From: a virus
Direction: 5' to 3' (one strand)
IMG/VR virus record: IMGVR_UViG_3300005253_000119
Coordinates: 1 to 30,688 of that record
Length of the DNA: 30,688 bases
The notes under the pieces were generated by a model. It searched no databases. It saw only the letters and a program-made list of their open reading frames with translations, and had not been told where the DNA came from. Positions 6,699 to 30,492 of the stretch are shown here, one piece after another. The stretch's first letter is position 1; each line of letters opens with the position of its first letter. Position numbers and translations under genes: made by a program.

Positions 6699-6734
6699 TG
6701 TATTTTGTCTCCTTTTATCTTATTTTTGTTGAAT

Positions 6735-6794
6735 GGATAAGCCTTACGGCTTGGAGCTATCCAGACCTTTCATAGTTCGACTCTTTGAACTCCA
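6735..6794 (-). promoter_or_regulatory. Structured leader with GUAA-capped hairpin
   Basis: In the 150-base gap upstream of the 212-aa gene, the minus-strand transcript can form GGAU ... AUCC plus AAGCC-GUAA-GGCUU, a bulged hairpin capped by a GNRA-type tetraloop. A nearby UGGAG/CUCCA pair offers an alternative fold. The same gap also holds a possible 23-codon ORF (6744-6815, MVSLDFLWSSKSRTMKGLDS...) and a strong AGGAGG followed by a four-codon frame; I do not call either as a gene. The element may regulate or stabilise the 212-aa message. Confidence 0.4.
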
Positions 6795-6848
6795 CAAAAA
6801 GTCCAAACTAACCATTCCCCATAGGCAACGTACCTCCTAGAAAATTAT

Positions 6849-7646: not shown

Positions 7647-8618
7647 TTAGCTTGCCTGATTAGTGGCAACGAAACCGTAAGCCCTTGCTATTGCCCTTGG
7701 ATTAGCAACGGCGAGCCCCACAACCCACTGCACCCTGTCCCTGAATACCGGGGCATCAGAAACCTCACCCAAGTCGTTTACGGTCATCGGTTCTTGCTGT
7801 ATTCCCCACAGATACATCTTCTCTCCAAACCTGGCAGAGTAGATACTTGTCTCGTCACTTCCACCACTAAGGTCCTCGCTATTGGTGATGACCTCCGTTG
7901 TCTGGTCAACCTTGACTCCTATTCTAAGCAGGGGAGTATCCTGATATATGTTGATTATCCGGCCAAACATATCCTTGTCCTGCCTCAACACATTCTCCCG
8001 CCTAAAACAGGCTTCAAAGGCCAGGTACATCTTTGAGTTCATAAACAGGGCGCTTGATCTATGTCCCACAGTAACATCTATGAGTTTGGAGATATTGTCC
8101 ATGAAGAATTGACGGTCTGTGGTGTCGTAGAGCATTCCCCTGTTCGGAGTGGCACTGCCGGCATCAATGTACTGGTCGGTGAAACCATCGGAATTGACGT
8201 CATCCACACGCATTGACAACCCCTTAAACTCGTCACTTGCCGGGTCTCCGTTGATATACATATCGTTGAACTTAAATGCCATAGCATGAGCTGACATCTG
8301 CCTTTGTGTCTGCCTTTCCGTTGGGTCAGCTTTTACCAGGACGGTATCCACATCTATCTCGTGCCCGAAGATGTATTTACCTTCGATTTTCTGTGCAAAC
8401 GTGCCGGTAGATTCACCGAATGACGCATTTACTTTCCTGGTGCCAACCGTGGGCAAAGTCTCCATGTTAGTTATCTGTAGTGCTAACTGAAGGTTACTTG
8501 CCAATGGCAGTATTTGAGCCAAATTAGATTCCTCAAGAAACCAGTAGGCTATTTCTGCCTGAACTTCCTTACCTTGATTGGCTGATTGGTTTGCATGGTC
8601 TACTAAAGTTACGGCCAT
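7647..8618 (-). CDS. Major capsid protein (HK97 fold)
   Basis: A 323-aa protein. The N-terminal arm is helical (ANQSANQGKEVQAEIAYWF), followed by an E-loop-like beta stretch (VGTRKVNASFGESTG and EGKYIFGHEIDVDTVLV). A spine-helix region follows (QTQRQMSAHAMAFKFNDMYI, then NGDP). Next is a P-domain-like part with DVTVGHRSSALFMNSKMYLA, and the final beta strands contain RVQWVVGLAVANPRAIAR. This arrangement and length are characteristic of phage HK97-fold coat proteins. The gene lies between a coiled-coil scaffold-like protein and a cement-like protein, the standard order. A GGGAGG site precedes the ATG. It forms the capsid shell. Confidence 0.88.
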   Translation of the reverse strand: MAVTLVDHANQSANQGKEVQAEIAYWFLEESNLAQILPLASNLQLALQITNMETLPTVGTRKVNASFGESTGTFAQKIEGKYIFGHEIDVDTVLVKADPTERQTQRQMSAHAMAFKFNDMYINGDPASDEFKGLSMRVDDVNSDGFTDQYIDAGSATPNRGMLYDTTDRQFFMDNISKLIDVTVGHRSSALFMNSKMYLAFEACFRRENVLRQDKDMFGRIINIYQDTPLLRIGVKVDQTTEVITNSEDLSGGSDETSIYSARFGEKMYLWGIQQEPMTVNDLGEVSDAPVFRDRVQWVVGLAVANPRAIARAYGFVATNQAS

Positions 8619-9398: not shown

Positions 9399-9499
9399 TT
9401 GATTTTTCCTCCTGTTTTTTAATAACAAAAAAGGGCTAGACAATTAAGTCCAACCCTTCTAAGTTTTCCTTCTAGGGTATTTCTATTCTATTGTTAAAT

Positions 9500-9653
9500 C
9501 ATATCTTACTAGCTAGGGATTAAGTAGCGTGCCGACCATCCAGTCACTTTGGCGGGTTAAGGGTTTTAGCCCATCCAGAGATTACTCTCTAGCTTTCCCG
9601 TCACATCGGAATCGAACCTTGCCTTCTACCTATTCCGACACTAATAAGATATG
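9500..9653 (-). ncRNA. Candidate structured RNA leader of the scaffold/capsid operon
   Basis: Bases 9641-9653 and 9500-9512 form a 13-bp closing stem; the single non-Watson-Crick pair is G-U only if the minus strand is transcribed. Inside it are a 7-bp stem (9632-9638 with 9606-9612) enclosing a 19-nt loop with GGUUCG, a CGGG/CCCG stem (9597-9600 with 9553-9556) and an AGAGA-GUAA-UCUCU hairpin (9590-9577) with a GNRA-type tetraloop. UGGAUG occurs twice (near 9575 and 9541). It lies ~100 bases upstream of the scaffold start. I recognise no known riboswitch or ribozyme. The rest of 9399-9673 holds no gene. Confidence 0.55.
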
Positions 9654-9673
9654 TTAATGTACTCAAATTTACT

Positions 9674-9847
9674 TTATATCTTTTTGCCATTCCTGTCAAG
9701 CAAGTCTTTATCCACATCTATTGTAGGAGATGGTTTAACAGTTTTAACCCGCCCATTCACAATAGATATAGTAACATTCCCGAAGCCCGGGTCCATCTCT
9801 ATCTTCTCGCACTCTTCCTGAATAAGTAATAGGACTTCTTGCTTCAT
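9674..9847 (-). CDS. DUF2292-like small protein (57 aa)
   Basis: A 57-residue ORF: MKQEVLLLIQEECEKIE, then GFGNVTISIVNGRVKTVKPS, ending DRNGKKI. The helix followed by 'G(F/S)VTIxIxxGRVxxxxxx' resembles the small DUF2292 (YezD-like) family, whose function is unknown. Its ATG overlaps the stop of the upstream gene (ATGA), which supports it as a real coupled gene. It ends 21 bases before the structured RNA. Confidence 0.55.
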   Translation of the reverse strand: MKQEVLLLIQEECEKIEMDPGFGNVTISIVNGRVKTVKPSPTIDVDKDLLDRNGKKI

Positions 9848-21305: not shown

Positions 21306-23390
21306 CTACCTCCTAACTAATACCCTTCTTGGGGTAGTTGTGCGATAGCCGGGATTATCCACTACTGTCTCGGGTGTGAAGTCGCTCAAGATAGACCTTT
21401 CACAGTTATGAACTAGAATACCATTCGCATAATATTCAGGGACATCTTGAACAGAGAGATTATAGACAGATGCCTGACCTCTAGGGCTTACGCCTAAGCA
21501 TCTCACGGCGGTTTGCGGCTTTACATCTTCCCGAACAGAACTTGCTGTGCGATGGCTCAATAGTTGAGTATTCCTGGCTACAATGGAGGCAGACTTTGAG
21601 AACTGGCAGCCTATTTCCCCATAATCTCTTGGCGAGATTAGCTCGCCCTTCATCTGTCCTCGCCCACAATCTATGCCCAACTCTGGCGAGAGGACGAATT
21701 CTGGCAAGGTGCTCAAGGTCATAGACGTGCCCCCCCATATGCTCTGACATATGTAAGCCATTGCCCTTACATTCAAAGTTAGAGAGTTCGTTATGAGATG
21801 AGTCATCGTCCTTATGGTGGATAGTATGCCCAGTAGGTATTTTCCCATAGGCATCTTCCCACATAACTCGGTGGAGAAGTCCCTTTGCTGACCTGAAATA
21901 CATTCTGTCGGTGCGCCGTTTGGCTTGCGGGTATCTGTGATACTTAGTTCCCTTGTAGATAACTGTTTCTCTTTCCATACGTCCATTCTATCATTGTATC
22001 GCAGACAAGTCAATGGAACCCAACCTTTACCCTTAACAAAGACAGGATGGTCAGCAGTTCCTACCAGCTTAGAGCCATCTGAAAATGAAGCCTCAAATAC
22101 TTCAGCATTGCTTTGTGTCAGTCCGCTAGCAACCACTGGCTGATATCCTTGCCTCATAGCAACTAAATCTCCAACCTTAACACTTTCAATTGGCTTCTCC
22201 CCAGTAATTGTTTTTATCATTGTTCCAGCAATAAGGCAAGCCATTAAATGGAATTTAGCCTCTTGATCTATTTTCTCCCCCTTAAAGACAAAACTAAATT
22301 TCTCCCTTACATAATTGCTGAGGTCATTAAAGATATATACTTTGTTAAGCCGGTGCATGCCCTGAACCAGTTTAATCTGTAACGCTTTGTCTAAACTGTG
22401 TTTAGGTTCACTAACCGGCCATCCCTCAGAGGTATATGCTTGTCTCTCCCCTGTCTCCTGATGATTACCACCTACCCGCTTCAATACATTCCGTCCTTCA
22501 GTAATTGTCTTGAAAGCCTGCACATGGTCGTGAATACTCATCTCCGACCCTGGCCAATACTCTTGAAAACCAAAGAAATCACCAGTTGCGGGGCTACCTG
22601 CAAAGAATAATCCCGCTGCATTTACCCTCCCGAAGTCGTGCCCTGAATATATAGGCCAGCTTTTATCAACATCAAACCTTGGAATCAAGCATATCTTATC
22701 ATCAAAGGCACTGTAGACTAAGCCTTCCAGCCCTTTCCATAGTCCGAGAACATACCTATCTTTATAGACTCCCTCAAACTCAGCTAGACGCTGCTTATAG
22801 TCCTCCGGTAATAACGGATTGTCATAACTGGAGGCTTGGAATACATCCCCCTTATGCTCACGAAAGAACATGCGATAAAGATAATGTGTCGGCGGACCAG
22901 GATTAGTCGCTGCAAATATCTGGTGAGGAAAGCCAGGTAATCTTAACCTGCCCTCTAGCATCTGCCAGTCATCCTCTGTAGTTTCTATCGCCTCATCAAT
23001 GCCTACGAAGCCAATACCACCAGCACCAAGGGAACCGAGTTTTAATGGGTCATCCAGCCCACCAAAGAGGATTTGAGAGCCATTAGTCAGTGTAATTAGC
23101 CCATCTGATTTATTGTAGGATGCTATAAGTTCTTTAGGACATACTAACTCCAGAAATGTCTTGAGAGTTGATAGCCCTATGGTAGCTCTAACCTTTCGAC
23201 AGATATAGCCGAAGTTACCCTTGTGGTCCAAAGACAGCTTTAGAGACTTAGCACAGAGAGCTAGGGTTTTGCCGGCGCCAAAGGCACCAGAGAATAAAGA
23301 CCTTGAAGCCTGAGATGCCACGAACTCATCTTGCGGTTTGTTGATTGGCTCCCACACTAATTCAACCTTAGCTTTAGTCGCTGTTACCAT
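21306..23390 (-). CDS. terL: Terminase large subunit (TerL), interrupted by an intein
   Basis: A 694-aa precursor; removing the intein (residues 385-662) leaves 416 residues, the usual TerL size. The ATPase has a Walker A-like SGAFGAGKT (34-42) and a Walker B-like GFVGIDEA (127-134). The ATPase end ATNPGPP lies at 161-167. The RNase H-like nuclease starts at IYSGHDFGRVNAAG (247-260, Asp252 the probable metal ligand). The C-extein is only 32 residues (CERSILSD...). The join FHLMA-CERS corresponds to the last nuclease motif, where other TerLs have DxxDAxRY-like sequence. TerL drives ATP-dependent packaging and cuts DNA at the portal. The start at 23390 lies inside the end of a 52-aa gene, preceded by a GGAG site. 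Confidence 0.9.
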   Translation of the reverse strand: MVTATKAKVELVWEPINKPQDEFVASQASRSLFSGAFGAGKTLALCAKSLKLSLDHKGNFGYICRKVRATIGLSTLKTFLELVCPKELIASYNKSDGLITLTNGSQILFGGLDDPLKLGSLGAGGIGFVGIDEAIETTEDDWQMLEGRLRLPGFPHQIFAATNPGPPTHYLYRMFFREHKGDVFQASSYDNPLLPEDYKQRLAEFEGVYKDRYVLGLWKGLEGLVYSAFDDKICLIPRFDVDKSWPIYSGHDFGRVNAAGLFFAGSPATGDFFGFQEYWPGSEMSIHDHVQAFKTITEGRNVLKRVGGNHQETGERQAYTSEGWPVSEPKHSLDKALQIKLVQGMHRLNKVYIFNDLSNYVREKFSFVFKGEKIDQEAKFHLMACLIAGTMIKTITGEKPIESVKVGDLVAMRQGYQPVVASGLTQSNAEVFEASFSDGSKLVGTADHPVFVKGKGWVPLTCLRYNDRMDVWKEKQLSTRELSITDTRKPNGAPTECISGQQRDFSTELCGKMPMGKYLLGILSTIRTMTHLITNSLTLNVRAMAYICQSIWGGTSMTLSTLPEFVLSPELGIDCGRGQMKGELISPRDYGEIGCQFSKSASIVARNTQLLSHRTASSVREDVKPQTAVRCLGVSPRGQASVYNLSVQDVPEYYANGILVHNCERSILSDFTPETVVDNPGYRTTTPRRVLVRR
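21405..22238 (-). other. Intein within TerL (278 residues)
   Basis: Residues 385-662 of the TerL precursor. Block A is CLIAGTMIKTITGEKPIES with nucleophile Cys385. Block B is GTADHPVFVKGKG (TxxH). Block F/G reads VYNLSVQDVPEYYANGILVHN, ending in the His-Asn dipeptide at 661-662, and the +1 residue is Cys663. All splicing residues are present, so it should be active. The region between the N and C halves of the splicing domain (about residues 471-636) does not look like a LAGLIDADG or in-frame HNH domain; instead it overlaps an out-of-frame HNH gene. It is inserted in the nuclease active-site motif of TerL, a typical place for an intein. Confidence 0.9.
21481..21978 (-). CDS. HNH homing endonuclease nested out of frame inside the TerL intein
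   Basis: A 165-aa protein in the -1 frame relative to TerL. The core HTIHHKDDDSSHNELSNFE (residues ~54-72) has the HNH-nuclease pattern HxxHHxDxDxxNNxxxNL in altered form, preceded by LHRVMWEDAYGKIP and followed by GLHMSEHM. The C-terminus has a probable zinc knuckle, CLHC (128-131) and FCSGRCKAA (~146-154). It starts at the ATG at 21978 (MERETVIYKGTK), just after the intein's N-splicing half, with a stop four codons upstream; only a weak SD precedes it. It ends before the intein's C-splicing half. It would cut inteinless terL genes and spread the intein. Translation could be by internal initiation or a -1 frameshift. Confidence 0.78.
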   Translation of the reverse strand: MERETVIYKGTKYHRYPQAKRRTDRMYFRSAKGLLHRVMWEDAYGKIPTGHTIHHKDDDSSHNELSNFECKGNGLHMSEHMGGHVYDLEHLARIRPLARVGHRLWARTDEGRANLAKRLWGNRLPVLKVCLHCSQEYSTIEPSHSKFCSGRCKAANRREMLRRKP

Positions 23391-24297: not shown

Positions 24298-24861
24298 ATG
24301 CCAACAAAAGGATGGAAGCGGACATGGGTAAAGTTTTTTGTTACTGGCTGGTTACATGGAAGTATCAGGTGGCAATTAGAACCAGATGAACGTAGTGTTT
24401 GGGCGGATTTAATCTGTTTAGCCGGGCAATGCGGACATGAAGGGGCTATTTGTGACAATGATGGTGAGGCTTTGCCCCGTGATTTTATGGCTAACCAACT
24501 GAATATTAAACAAACCTTACTTGACAGGACTATTGCGAAATCCATACACGACAACCGTTTGGAAGAGGTTGATGGCTGCTTATCTATTGTAAACTGGTCC
24601 TCATATCAATCAGAGTATGAACGGCAGAAAATATCACGCCAGAAGCCTTACCGCCAAGATAAGAAGGTAGTCAAAGAGAGCTTTGCTGAGATTGTACTAT
24701 CAGGGCGTAAGGCAGAGCTGGAAGAAGTAGCACCCGATGAGTTCGCCATTAAGGATCATGAGTGTGAGAACGATTCAATACACTCCTCACCTGACACCAT
24801 CAAGGTCATAGGTGAGCACCCAGATGGCACCCTGATATTCGACATCAAAGAGGGTGAATAG
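24298..24861 (+). CDS. Phage replisome-organizer-like replication protein
   Basis: A 187-aa protein. Its N-terminal ~110 residues match the pattern of the phage replisome-organizer N-terminal domain: KGWKRTWVKFFVTGWLHG, then RWQLEPDERSVWADLICLAG, then HEGAICDNDGEALPRDFMAN, then the conserved end VNWSSYQSEYERQK. This domain is a winged helix that binds the phage origin; full-length relatives are longer and recruit the host helicase loader. Here the C-terminal part is short and acidic (residues 130-187). It is the first gene rightward of the divergent promoter, with an ideal GGAGG site. The following non-coding, hairpin-rich stretch could be its origin. Confidence 0.72.
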   Translation: MPTKGWKRTWVKFFVTGWLHGSIRWQLEPDERSVWADLICLAGQCGHEGAICDNDGEALPRDFMANQLNIKQTLLDRTIAKSIHDNRLEEVDGCLSIVNWSSYQSEYERQKISRQKPYRQDKKVVKESFAEIVLSGRKAELEEVAPDEFAIKDHECENDSIHSSPDTIKVIGEHPDGTLIFDIKEGE

Positions 24862-29376: not shown

Positions 29377-30492
29377 TCATGCTTGCCCCTTCTCTATGGC
29401 TGCAATAGCCTTTAATATTGGGTATATCTGCTGTGGCACCACCGCATTGCCTAAACATCTAAGTCTGTCCACCCTATTGGGAATCCCATGAGCCACTCTA
29501 CCCAGTTCGGGTTCAACTGCCCAGTATTCTTCCCCTCTAATTGCGATACCCTGTCCTCTAACTTCCGGATACCGCCCCCTGGTGTTAGTCTCTCCATCTG
29601 ACCGCCCCCGGTTGGTGTCTTTGGTGTCGGCCACAATACCTGTTTCCTCAGATTCGCACAGCCCCCCTTGTTCGCTTCGGGTGTCCTCTCCTCTGGCTTT
29701 CGTATGTCCATTCTCATATCCATCACGCTTGGAGTAGCCCACAATGAAGATTCTATCTCTCCGGTGCGGGGCATTGACGGCACAAGCTGGAATAAGAAAT
29801 GATGTCGTTTCATAGCCCTGACTCTCCAGGTCAGATATACAATCGTTGAACCCCATATTGAGGAGTCCAAACACATTCTCTGCAACGCACCAAGTGGGCC
29901 TGATTTCTGATATGACCCTAAGCATTTCTGGCCAGAGCCAACGGTCATCATCCTTGCCTTTTCGCTTCCCGGCATTAGATACAGGCTGGCAAGGGAATCC
30001 TCCTGTAATAAGGGTAATTGGGGGGATTGTTCCTGTTGCCTTGGATTGGTCATCTGTATCTGCTGGTTGATTGTCTGGGACTGGAGAACTAGCTTGCCGT
30101 CTGGTTGAAGCCGATATGCTCTCTCGCCCACCTTGGCTGGCTGCCCGTCCTTCGTGTAAAGAGTCTCCACTTTCGCCCCTGCTTCGTTGGCTTGTGGTGT
30201 TCTCCATAGTTTCTTCACCGCCGTTGCTAACCCATCCCCTGCCTTCGGCGATATCCCTTTCCGATTGTTGTTCCCCTCGACCGAAGGCGTTGGCCAAAGC
30301 TTCTTCGATTGTTTCTTTGTTGACATCTTTAATATCTCCTATTATTGGCACCTGAGGCCAATGCTTTTTTAATACCTTCTGACAGTAGGCATTGTTCTCT
30401 ACCATCAAGACTGTTGTAAAGCCAGCCCATTCAGCGGCTAAATCAATCCCACCTATGCCGGTGAAGAGGCTAATGTGGGTTAGCTCTACCAT
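29377..30492 (-). CDS. DNA cytosine-5 methyltransferase (Dcm-like)
   Basis: A 371-aa C5-MTase. Motif I is LFTGIGGIDLAAEWAGF (SAM binding, 9-25). Motif IV is GGFPCQP (164-170) with catalytic Cys168; motif VI is ENV (205-207); motif VIII is PHRRDRIFIVGY (242-253). Motif X is LGNAVVPQ (347-354). It transfers a methyl group to cytosine C5, and with no restriction enzyme here it is probably an orphan that protects phage DNA or alters regulation. Unusual points: a low-complexity insert (about 70-155) between the motif III region and motif IV, and a low-complexity target-recognition region (about 255-320). Both coincide with the nested ORF. A GAGGTAGG site supports the start. Confidence 0.9.
   Translation of the reverse strand: MVELTHISLFTGIGGIDLAAEWAGFTTVLMVENNAYCQKVLKKHWPQVPIIGDIKDVNKETIEEALANAFGRGEQQSERDIAEGRGWVSNGGEETMENTTSQRSRGESGDSLHEGRAASQGGRESISASTRRQASSPVPDNQPADTDDQSKATGTIPPITLITGGFPCQPVSNAGKRKGKDDDRWLWPEMLRVISEIRPTWCVAENVFGLLNMGFNDCISDLESQGYETTSFLIPACAVNAPHRRDRIFIVGYSKRDGYENGHTKARGEDTRSEQGGLCESEETGIVADTKDTNRGRSDGETNTRGRYPEVRGQGIAIRGEEYWAVEPELGRVAHGIPNRVDRLRCLGNAVVPQQIYPILKAIAAIEKGQA
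29451..30326 (-). CDS. ORF nested out of frame in the methyltransferase; candidate overlapping gene
   Basis: A 291-aa ORF in the +1 frame relative to the methyltransferase, wholly inside it. AGGAGA (30335-30340) lies 8 bases before the ATG, an ideal spacing. The product is hydrophilic with four LWxTP motifs (residues 10-14, 40-44, 195-199, 231-235), a KKLWPTPSVEGNNNRKG start and the C-terminus NPNWVEWLMGFPIGWTDL (272-289). I recall similar LWPTP and GFPxGWTDL sequences in phage proteins annotated as hypothetical or methylase-related, but cannot check. The same DNA encodes methyltransferase residues 56-347. Translation has not been shown; the alternative is a chance ORF in a constrained sequence, which the motifs make less likely. 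Confidence 0.65.
   Translation of the reverse strand: MSTKKQSKKLWPTPSVEGNNNRKGISPKAGDGLATAVKKLWRTPQANEAGAKVETLYTKDGQPAKVGERAYRLQPDGKLVLQSQTINQQIQMTNPRQQEQSPQLPLLQEDSLASLYLMPGSEKARMMTVGSGQKCLGSYQKSGPLGALQRMCLDSSIWGSTIVYLTWRVRAMKRHHFLFQLVPSMPRTGEIESSLWATPSVMDMRMDIRKPEERTPEANKGGCANLRKQVLWPTPKTPTGGGQMERLTPGGGIRKLEDRVSQLEGKNTGQLNPNWVEWLMGFPIGWTDLDV

Follow-up and report, generated by a model that had tools for sequence, protein, structure and literature searches.

A folded leader RNA within a putative terminator-gated promoter unit ahead of the scaffold and capsid genes of a phage

The scaffolding protein of phage P22 is under autogenous control, and the packaging RNA of phage phi29 is an RNA with paired ends and a multibranched fold. 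Antitermination by the put RNA of phage HK022 involves its binding to the beta' zinc-binding domain of RNA polymerase. At lambdoid late promoters, the Q protein makes RNA polymerase resistant to terminators, for which the initial transcript must contain a -10-like element and the promoter a binding element (accessible text of PMC6606751). The put RNA of phage HK022, a nascent RNA of ~70 nt with two stem-loops, acts alone at early promoters (accessible text of PMC9378689). A structured leader or a terminator gate before phage scaffold-capsid genes was not found described in the open-licence literature, as far as its accessible text extends. In the accessible part of a survey of 104 motifs (PMC2864571) the word "capsid" is absent, and the phage-associated motifs presented there are others.

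The window discussed here is the whole of IMG/VR virus record IMGVR_UViG_3300005253_000119, a stretch of 30,688 bases from an uncultivated phage whose head block is situated on the minus strand (Table 1). The element under study, 9653-9500, is located in the gap that separates a small open reading frame (ORF) from the scaffold-like gene, and searches of the latter against Pfam and PHROG gave no match. The first-pass annotation had described this gap as the only sizeable non-coding one in the head operon; the list of ORFs confirms that it is the largest but contains a further gap of 150 nt at 6699-6848. This second gap, on the minus strand of the head block, harbours a hairpin (~-10 kcal/mol) and, behind it, a T run. 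Elsewhere in the window, the large terminase ORF (21306-23390, minus strand) contains an intein at residues ~385-662, as judged by Hint/intein matches, and the terminase genes of relatives are without the ~0.83 kb insert. A C-5 cytosine DNA methylase gene occupies 29377-30492 (minus strand), and a phage replisome organiser N-terminal domain gives a weak match, just under the Pfam cut-off, at 24298-24861 (plus strand). Relatives of a protein of 1878 amino acids were not found with its C-terminal part as the query.

Table 1. Features of the head block around the folded RNA, listed in the direction of the minus strand.
Feature	Position	Strand	Basis or remark
Small ORF, 57 aa	9674..9847	-	Stop codon inside the promoter
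Promoter, TTGACA-17-TAAAGT (or TATAAA at 15 nt spacing)	9671..9699	-	10/12 consensus matches
-10 box and initially transcribed region	9640..9679	-	26/32 bases shared with related locus L002 (TATAA...TTAACATAWCT)
Structured RNA domain, 154 nt	9500..9653	-	Folding; minimum free energy (MFE) -55.2 kcal/mol
Closing stem, 14 bp (13 plus terminal G-U)	9653-9640/9513-9500	-	MFE structure
Inner helices GGA/UCC, UAGGUAG/CUACUUA and GGC+GGUU/AACC+GCC	within 9500..9653	-	MFE structure
Three hairpins, UUCCG/CGGGA, CUAGAGA-GUAA-UCUCUGG and GGG/CCC	within 9500..9653	-	MFE structure
Fourth hairpin, GUG+CUGG/UCGG+CAC	within 9500..9653	-	MFE structure
Linker between structured domain and terminator	9461..9499	-	Could pair with the terminator's 5' arm as a weak alternative hairpin of 5 bp
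Intrinsic terminator	9429..9460	-	13-pair hairpin of ~-18 kcal/mol, then run of T
Shine-Dalgarno sequence AGGAGG	9408..9413	-	From sequence; between terminator and scaffold ATG
Scaffold-like gene, 253 aa	8637..9398	-	Named by position and charged, coiled-coil-like sequence
Major capsid protein gene	7647..8618	-	phrog_212; Pfam GP7

The RNA read from the minus strand is predicted to fold far better than chance. In a 201-nt context (9480-9680), the folding energy of the minus strand is -56.3 kcal/mol, whereas its shuffles average -41.3; this corresponds to a z of -3.7 with none of 200 shuffles as good, while the plus strand of the same stretch gives a z of -1.4 with 22 of 200 shuffles as good. 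Among 876 windows of 154 nt taken from both strands, 9500-9653 on the minus strand has the lowest z, -5.1, followed by -4.1, although its coordinates were chosen to fit the closing stem, so that this value is somewhat favoured in the scan. The MFE structure comprises 53 pairs in 10 helices. Seven of these pairs are G-U and the plus strand keeps only 46 of the 53, in agreement with the earlier statement that the wobble favours the minus-strand transcript. Thermodynamic folding, a check suggested in the first-pass annotation, places the minus-strand structure exactly at 9653-9500 and upholds the proposal of a large structured leader ahead of the scaffold and capsid genes, the significant fold being situated inside the promoter-to-scaffold leader. 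The 13-bp closing stem proposed there is present in the MFE structure with one extra terminal G-U pair, and the GUAA-tetraloop hairpin is recovered at 9592-9575. Two other stems that had been proposed, the 7-bp internal hairpin UCGGAAU/AUUCCGA and the CGGG/CCCG stem, fall outside the MFE structure, and forcing them costs 9.1 and 2.6 kcal/mol, respectively; UAGGUAG/CUACUUA, GGC/GGUU-AACC/GCC and UUCCG/CGGGA are used in their place. We take the fold predicted at 9653-9500 to be real, which confirms the original observation in part.

Comparison with known RNA families indicates that the folded RNA is an orphan with no recognisable relatives. The Rfam search of the window returned no match at the gathering score. 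In the leader region, six weak matches at E 0.8-8 are all far under the curated scores and none is convincing (E up to 10), consistent with the earlier remark that the RNA corresponds to no known riboswitch or ribozyme. Matches to Rfam are also absent for seven relatives. In the phage collection, the DNA of the domain matched nothing beyond short chance stretches (7-13% of the query), and plasmids gave no match. The covariance model matched only the window itself among 24 sources (23 related loci and the window), and the two matches obtained in 400 Chloroflexota genomes, with E of 0.06 and 0.70 per genome, are at chance level. A tRNA or tmRNA was considered and rejected: GGTTCGATTCC resembles a T-loop without forming the flanking stem, and ARAGORN predicts no tRNA. 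A classical switching riboswitch was likewise rejected, as pairing of the domain with the terminator is no better than in shuffles.

The sequence matches on either side of the domain place it within a promoter-leader-terminator unit directly before the scaffold gene; neither the promoter nor the terminator had been recorded in the first-pass annotation. The promoter, a consensus match from which a start site at about 9664 is projected, overlaps the end of the preceding small ORF, and the 3' part of the initially transcribed region listed in Table 1 overlaps the 5' arm of the closing stem. The intrinsic terminator is the strongest of seven found in the window on both strands (hairpin of -10 kcal/mol or better plus T run), and the scaffold ATG is 31 nt downstream of it. 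Antiterminator pairing between the domain and the 5' arm of the terminator is equalled in 208 of 500 shuffles and costs 28 kcal/mol to force; the corresponding pairing of the linker is equalled in 42 of 500 shuffles and is 8.3 kcal/mol uphill. This lack of a competing antiterminator pairing suggests a compact and stable domain that is not built for switching by itself.

Searches with the capsid and terminase proteins provided eight distinct related head loci, namely the window, L002, L017, L016, L021, L047, L036 and L003. Repeat contigs were merged (L015, L022 and L023 into L016; L014 and L020 into L017; L004 into L003; L052 into L047), and L004, which has the same capsid match as L003 and whose start was not set, was left out of the terminator comparison. 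The large-terminase alignment returned 15 loci in viral contigs, some of them already in the set, and none in genome contigs. An oligo-T-tailed hairpin ends 22-40 nt upstream of the scaffold-like start in six of the eight loci (the window, L002, L017, L016, L021 and L047), with a clean T run directly after the hairpin in all six. A count on both strands of the same loci gave 32 such hairpins, the six included, in 179,512 nt, which sets the background at 0.008 per 45 nt. The terminator layout spans two capsid families, phrog_212 and, in L016, phrog_267, and it also spans scaffolds without detectable similarity. In the other two loci, L036 and L003, the terminator is absent and a promoter-like sequence immediately precedes the gene.

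L002, with a capsid 66% identical to that of the window, is the nearest relative with a readable leader and is without the structured RNA; its TTGACA-17-TATAAG promoter precedes a leader of ~50 nt, and 40 nt separate the terminator from the scaffold gene. The order of promoter, leader and terminator is the same in L017, in which the terminator is 26 nt before a scaffold-like gene. The product of that gene is 31% identical to the scaffold-like protein of the window, and no similarity was detected between the scaffold proteins of the window and L002. The terminator hairpins of L002 (4315-4354) and L017 (2574-2615) have the inner motif UUAUG...CGUGA in common while their outer stems differ, a pattern as if the hairpin itself were conserved; the motif is absent in the window, L016 and L047. 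In L047, from an Anaerolineales MAG (capsid 31%), a TATAAT box is followed by ~30 nt of leader and then by a perfect hairpin, which ends 28 nt before the start. L021 has a weaker terminator, 32 nt before the start; by eye, the reverse complement of about 2095-2130, upstream of that terminator, resembles the 5' part of a tRNA gene.

A TTGACA box before the scaffold gene is found in L003 as well as in L002 and L017; the promoters of the latter two are not called by the strict scan, which insists on a T at the last position of the -10 box. Across the -10 box and the first transcribed bases, the window and L002 are 81% identical (26 of 32, the best ungapped 32-mer match in a comparison of upstream regions of 500 by 496 nt), against 68% for the capsid-gene DNA. 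A degenerate pattern of the initially transcribed region, searched in viral contigs, retrieved the L002 contig and nine unrelated matches that look like coding sequence.

L016 presents a different folded RNA in the same slot, followed by a terminator 22 nt before the start, and no promoter was found in the 500 nt scanned. This RNA (1288-1402) has a closing stem of 9-10 bp and is identical in two contigs, with a z of -3.4 when the terminator is included; the phage shares the terminase family. It was rejected as a relative of the window RNA, since the covariance model with filters off scored 6.8 bits at the L016 terminator and ~0 in the RNA. A structured leader as a shared trait was also rejected, with z of +0.4 for the unstructured leader before the terminator of L002, -2.2 for the L016 RNA alone, -1.2 for L051, -2.2 for L049 and -4.6 for L050. 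The L050 value belongs to a strongly folded gap before a scaffold-like gene of Gordonia phage Meyran (1599-1790), and that of L051 to a long leader, behind a good promoter, before a scaffold-like gene of Erythrobacter phage vB_EliS-L02 (1240-1480). Among the traits compared, only the terminator appears to recur across relatives, and the folded domain appears confined to the window.

The terminator was further sought in capsid-homologue loci of Chloroflexota genomes, where it is present in one of 26 (the L047/L052 locus). These are 26 of 30 loci, after removal of L066, L073 and L076, which have no scaffold-like ORF by the rule applied, and of L068, which was read in the wrong orientation. The layout is therefore not general for the capsid family and belongs to this phage group. 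By the same rule, the annotated phages L048, L049 and L050 have no terminator, and L051 has the hairpin without the clean T run. The capsid alignment gave one distant relative in genome contigs, in an Anaerolineales MAG, which hints weakly at a Chloroflexota host.

Like lambda pR'-tR', the window presents, by its sequence matches, a promoter, a short leader, an intrinsic terminator and then virion genes, together with a conserved sequence in the initially transcribed region. TTAACATA, ~10 nt into the transcript in both the window and L002, is a candidate counterpart of the -10-like pause element. In contrast to lambda, the gate is located inside the virion gene block, directly before the scaffold-capsid genes, and the leader carries a large folded domain. 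A PHROGs scan of 10 window proteins, most of which are unmatched, revealed neither a Q-like protein nor any other antitermination protein in this possibly incomplete contig. Terminator-type riboswitches and attenuators resemble the window in the order of structured leader, terminator and ribosome-binding site, but the window RNA has no Rfam match and no competing antiterminator above shuffles. Similar size, paired ends and a multibranched fold are common to the window RNA and the phi29 packaging RNA, whereas the former has no match in Rfam and this phage possesses a conventional large terminase.

The explanation we favour, with a probability of roughly one half, is a promoter of the scaffold-capsid cassette that is gated by a terminator, with the element as its leader. 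The terminator keeps its position while the leader, scaffold and capsid sequences change, which speaks for a gate on transcription into the capsid cassette. The fold, the promoter match, the terminator and its conserved position are observed, and from them we infer transcription itself, its efficiency of termination, a regulated read-through and a part of the domain in it. RNA polymerase would start at about 9664, and the nascent 154-nt domain would fold at once into a compact, non-switching structure. The polymerase would then meet the intrinsic terminator, at which much of the transcription would stop by default to leave a stable RNA of ~235 nt, while a terminator-resistant polymerase would continue into the scaffold and capsid genes. 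The folded domain would most likely be a docking platform for a host or phage factor that sets read-through and whose target is the nascent RNA or the polymerase, or else a stabiliser of the by-product RNA. The conserved design would be the promoter plus terminator, to which the leader of this phage may have gained a compact RNA domain. As a finding, the terminator-gated promoter has better support and a wider reach than the orphan RNA.

The main rival to the gated promoter is a discrete, trans-acting phage small RNA of ~235 nt, with the capsid mRNA produced by leak-through or by upstream transcription. The promoter-like and terminator-like ends that the domain has of its own, and a very stable, non-switching fold with no visible coupling to the terminator, give this reading some weight, yet the same promoter-terminator slot in L047, L017 and L002 holds short, largely unstructured leaders and no homologue of the domain was found; we consider it possible but doubtful. 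The high stability of the fold would equally suit a passive element of the 5' untranslated region, in which a heavily translated capsid mRNA is protected or insulated, but not regulated, by the closing stem and a terminator-like hairpin, and such an element would agree with leaders whose content varies freely in relatives and with hairpins that recur near the start codon. We nevertheless judge it decidedly unlikely, as the clean T run after the hairpin in six of six loci fits termination better than protection, and L036 and L003 have no hairpin at all.

Put-like action, in which the nascent domain would bind the elongating polymerase and confer terminator resistance without a protein, as in HK022, is a further and very unlikely alternative. 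A folded nascent RNA just downstream of a phage promoter and upstream of an intrinsic terminator reproduces the geometry of put as given in the accessible text of PMC9378689. The put RNA described there is, however, ~70 nt long with two stem-loops and belongs to early promoters, whereas the window RNA has 154 nt, 10 helices and a 14-bp closing stem and is situated beside head genes; moreover, a terminator would be pointless if its antiterminator were always on. The first-pass annotation had suggested control of the scaffold to coat ratio, for example by the scaffold protein binding its own leader. The regulatory idea is reasonable in kind, and an element directly before the scaffold gene could in principle touch scaffold translation alone. 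The element and the terminator are upstream of both genes, though, so that transcriptional control would move scaffold and coat together, and more than 85 nt separate the fold from the ribosome-binding site of the scaffold gene downstream. Nothing ties the RNA to scaffold translation alone; the ratio is not a likely target, and this is the least probable of the readings considered.

It is also unlikely, on present evidence, that the folded domain belongs to a novel RNA class, specific to phages, by which passage of the capsid terminator is controlled, either alone or by sensing a signal of the infection stage. Several unrelated RNAs, those of the window and L016 among them, would then occupy one promoter-terminator slot and set the timing of capsid synthesis.

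Of all genes in the late programme, those for the capsid must be expressed most strongly. A terminator between the capsid promoter and the first gene, in phages with unrelated capsids, implies read-through control, and such control would be new for these phages as far as the accessible open-licence literature goes. The folded RNA in this slot provides a small, testable construct for asking whether phage RNA domains time capsid expression.
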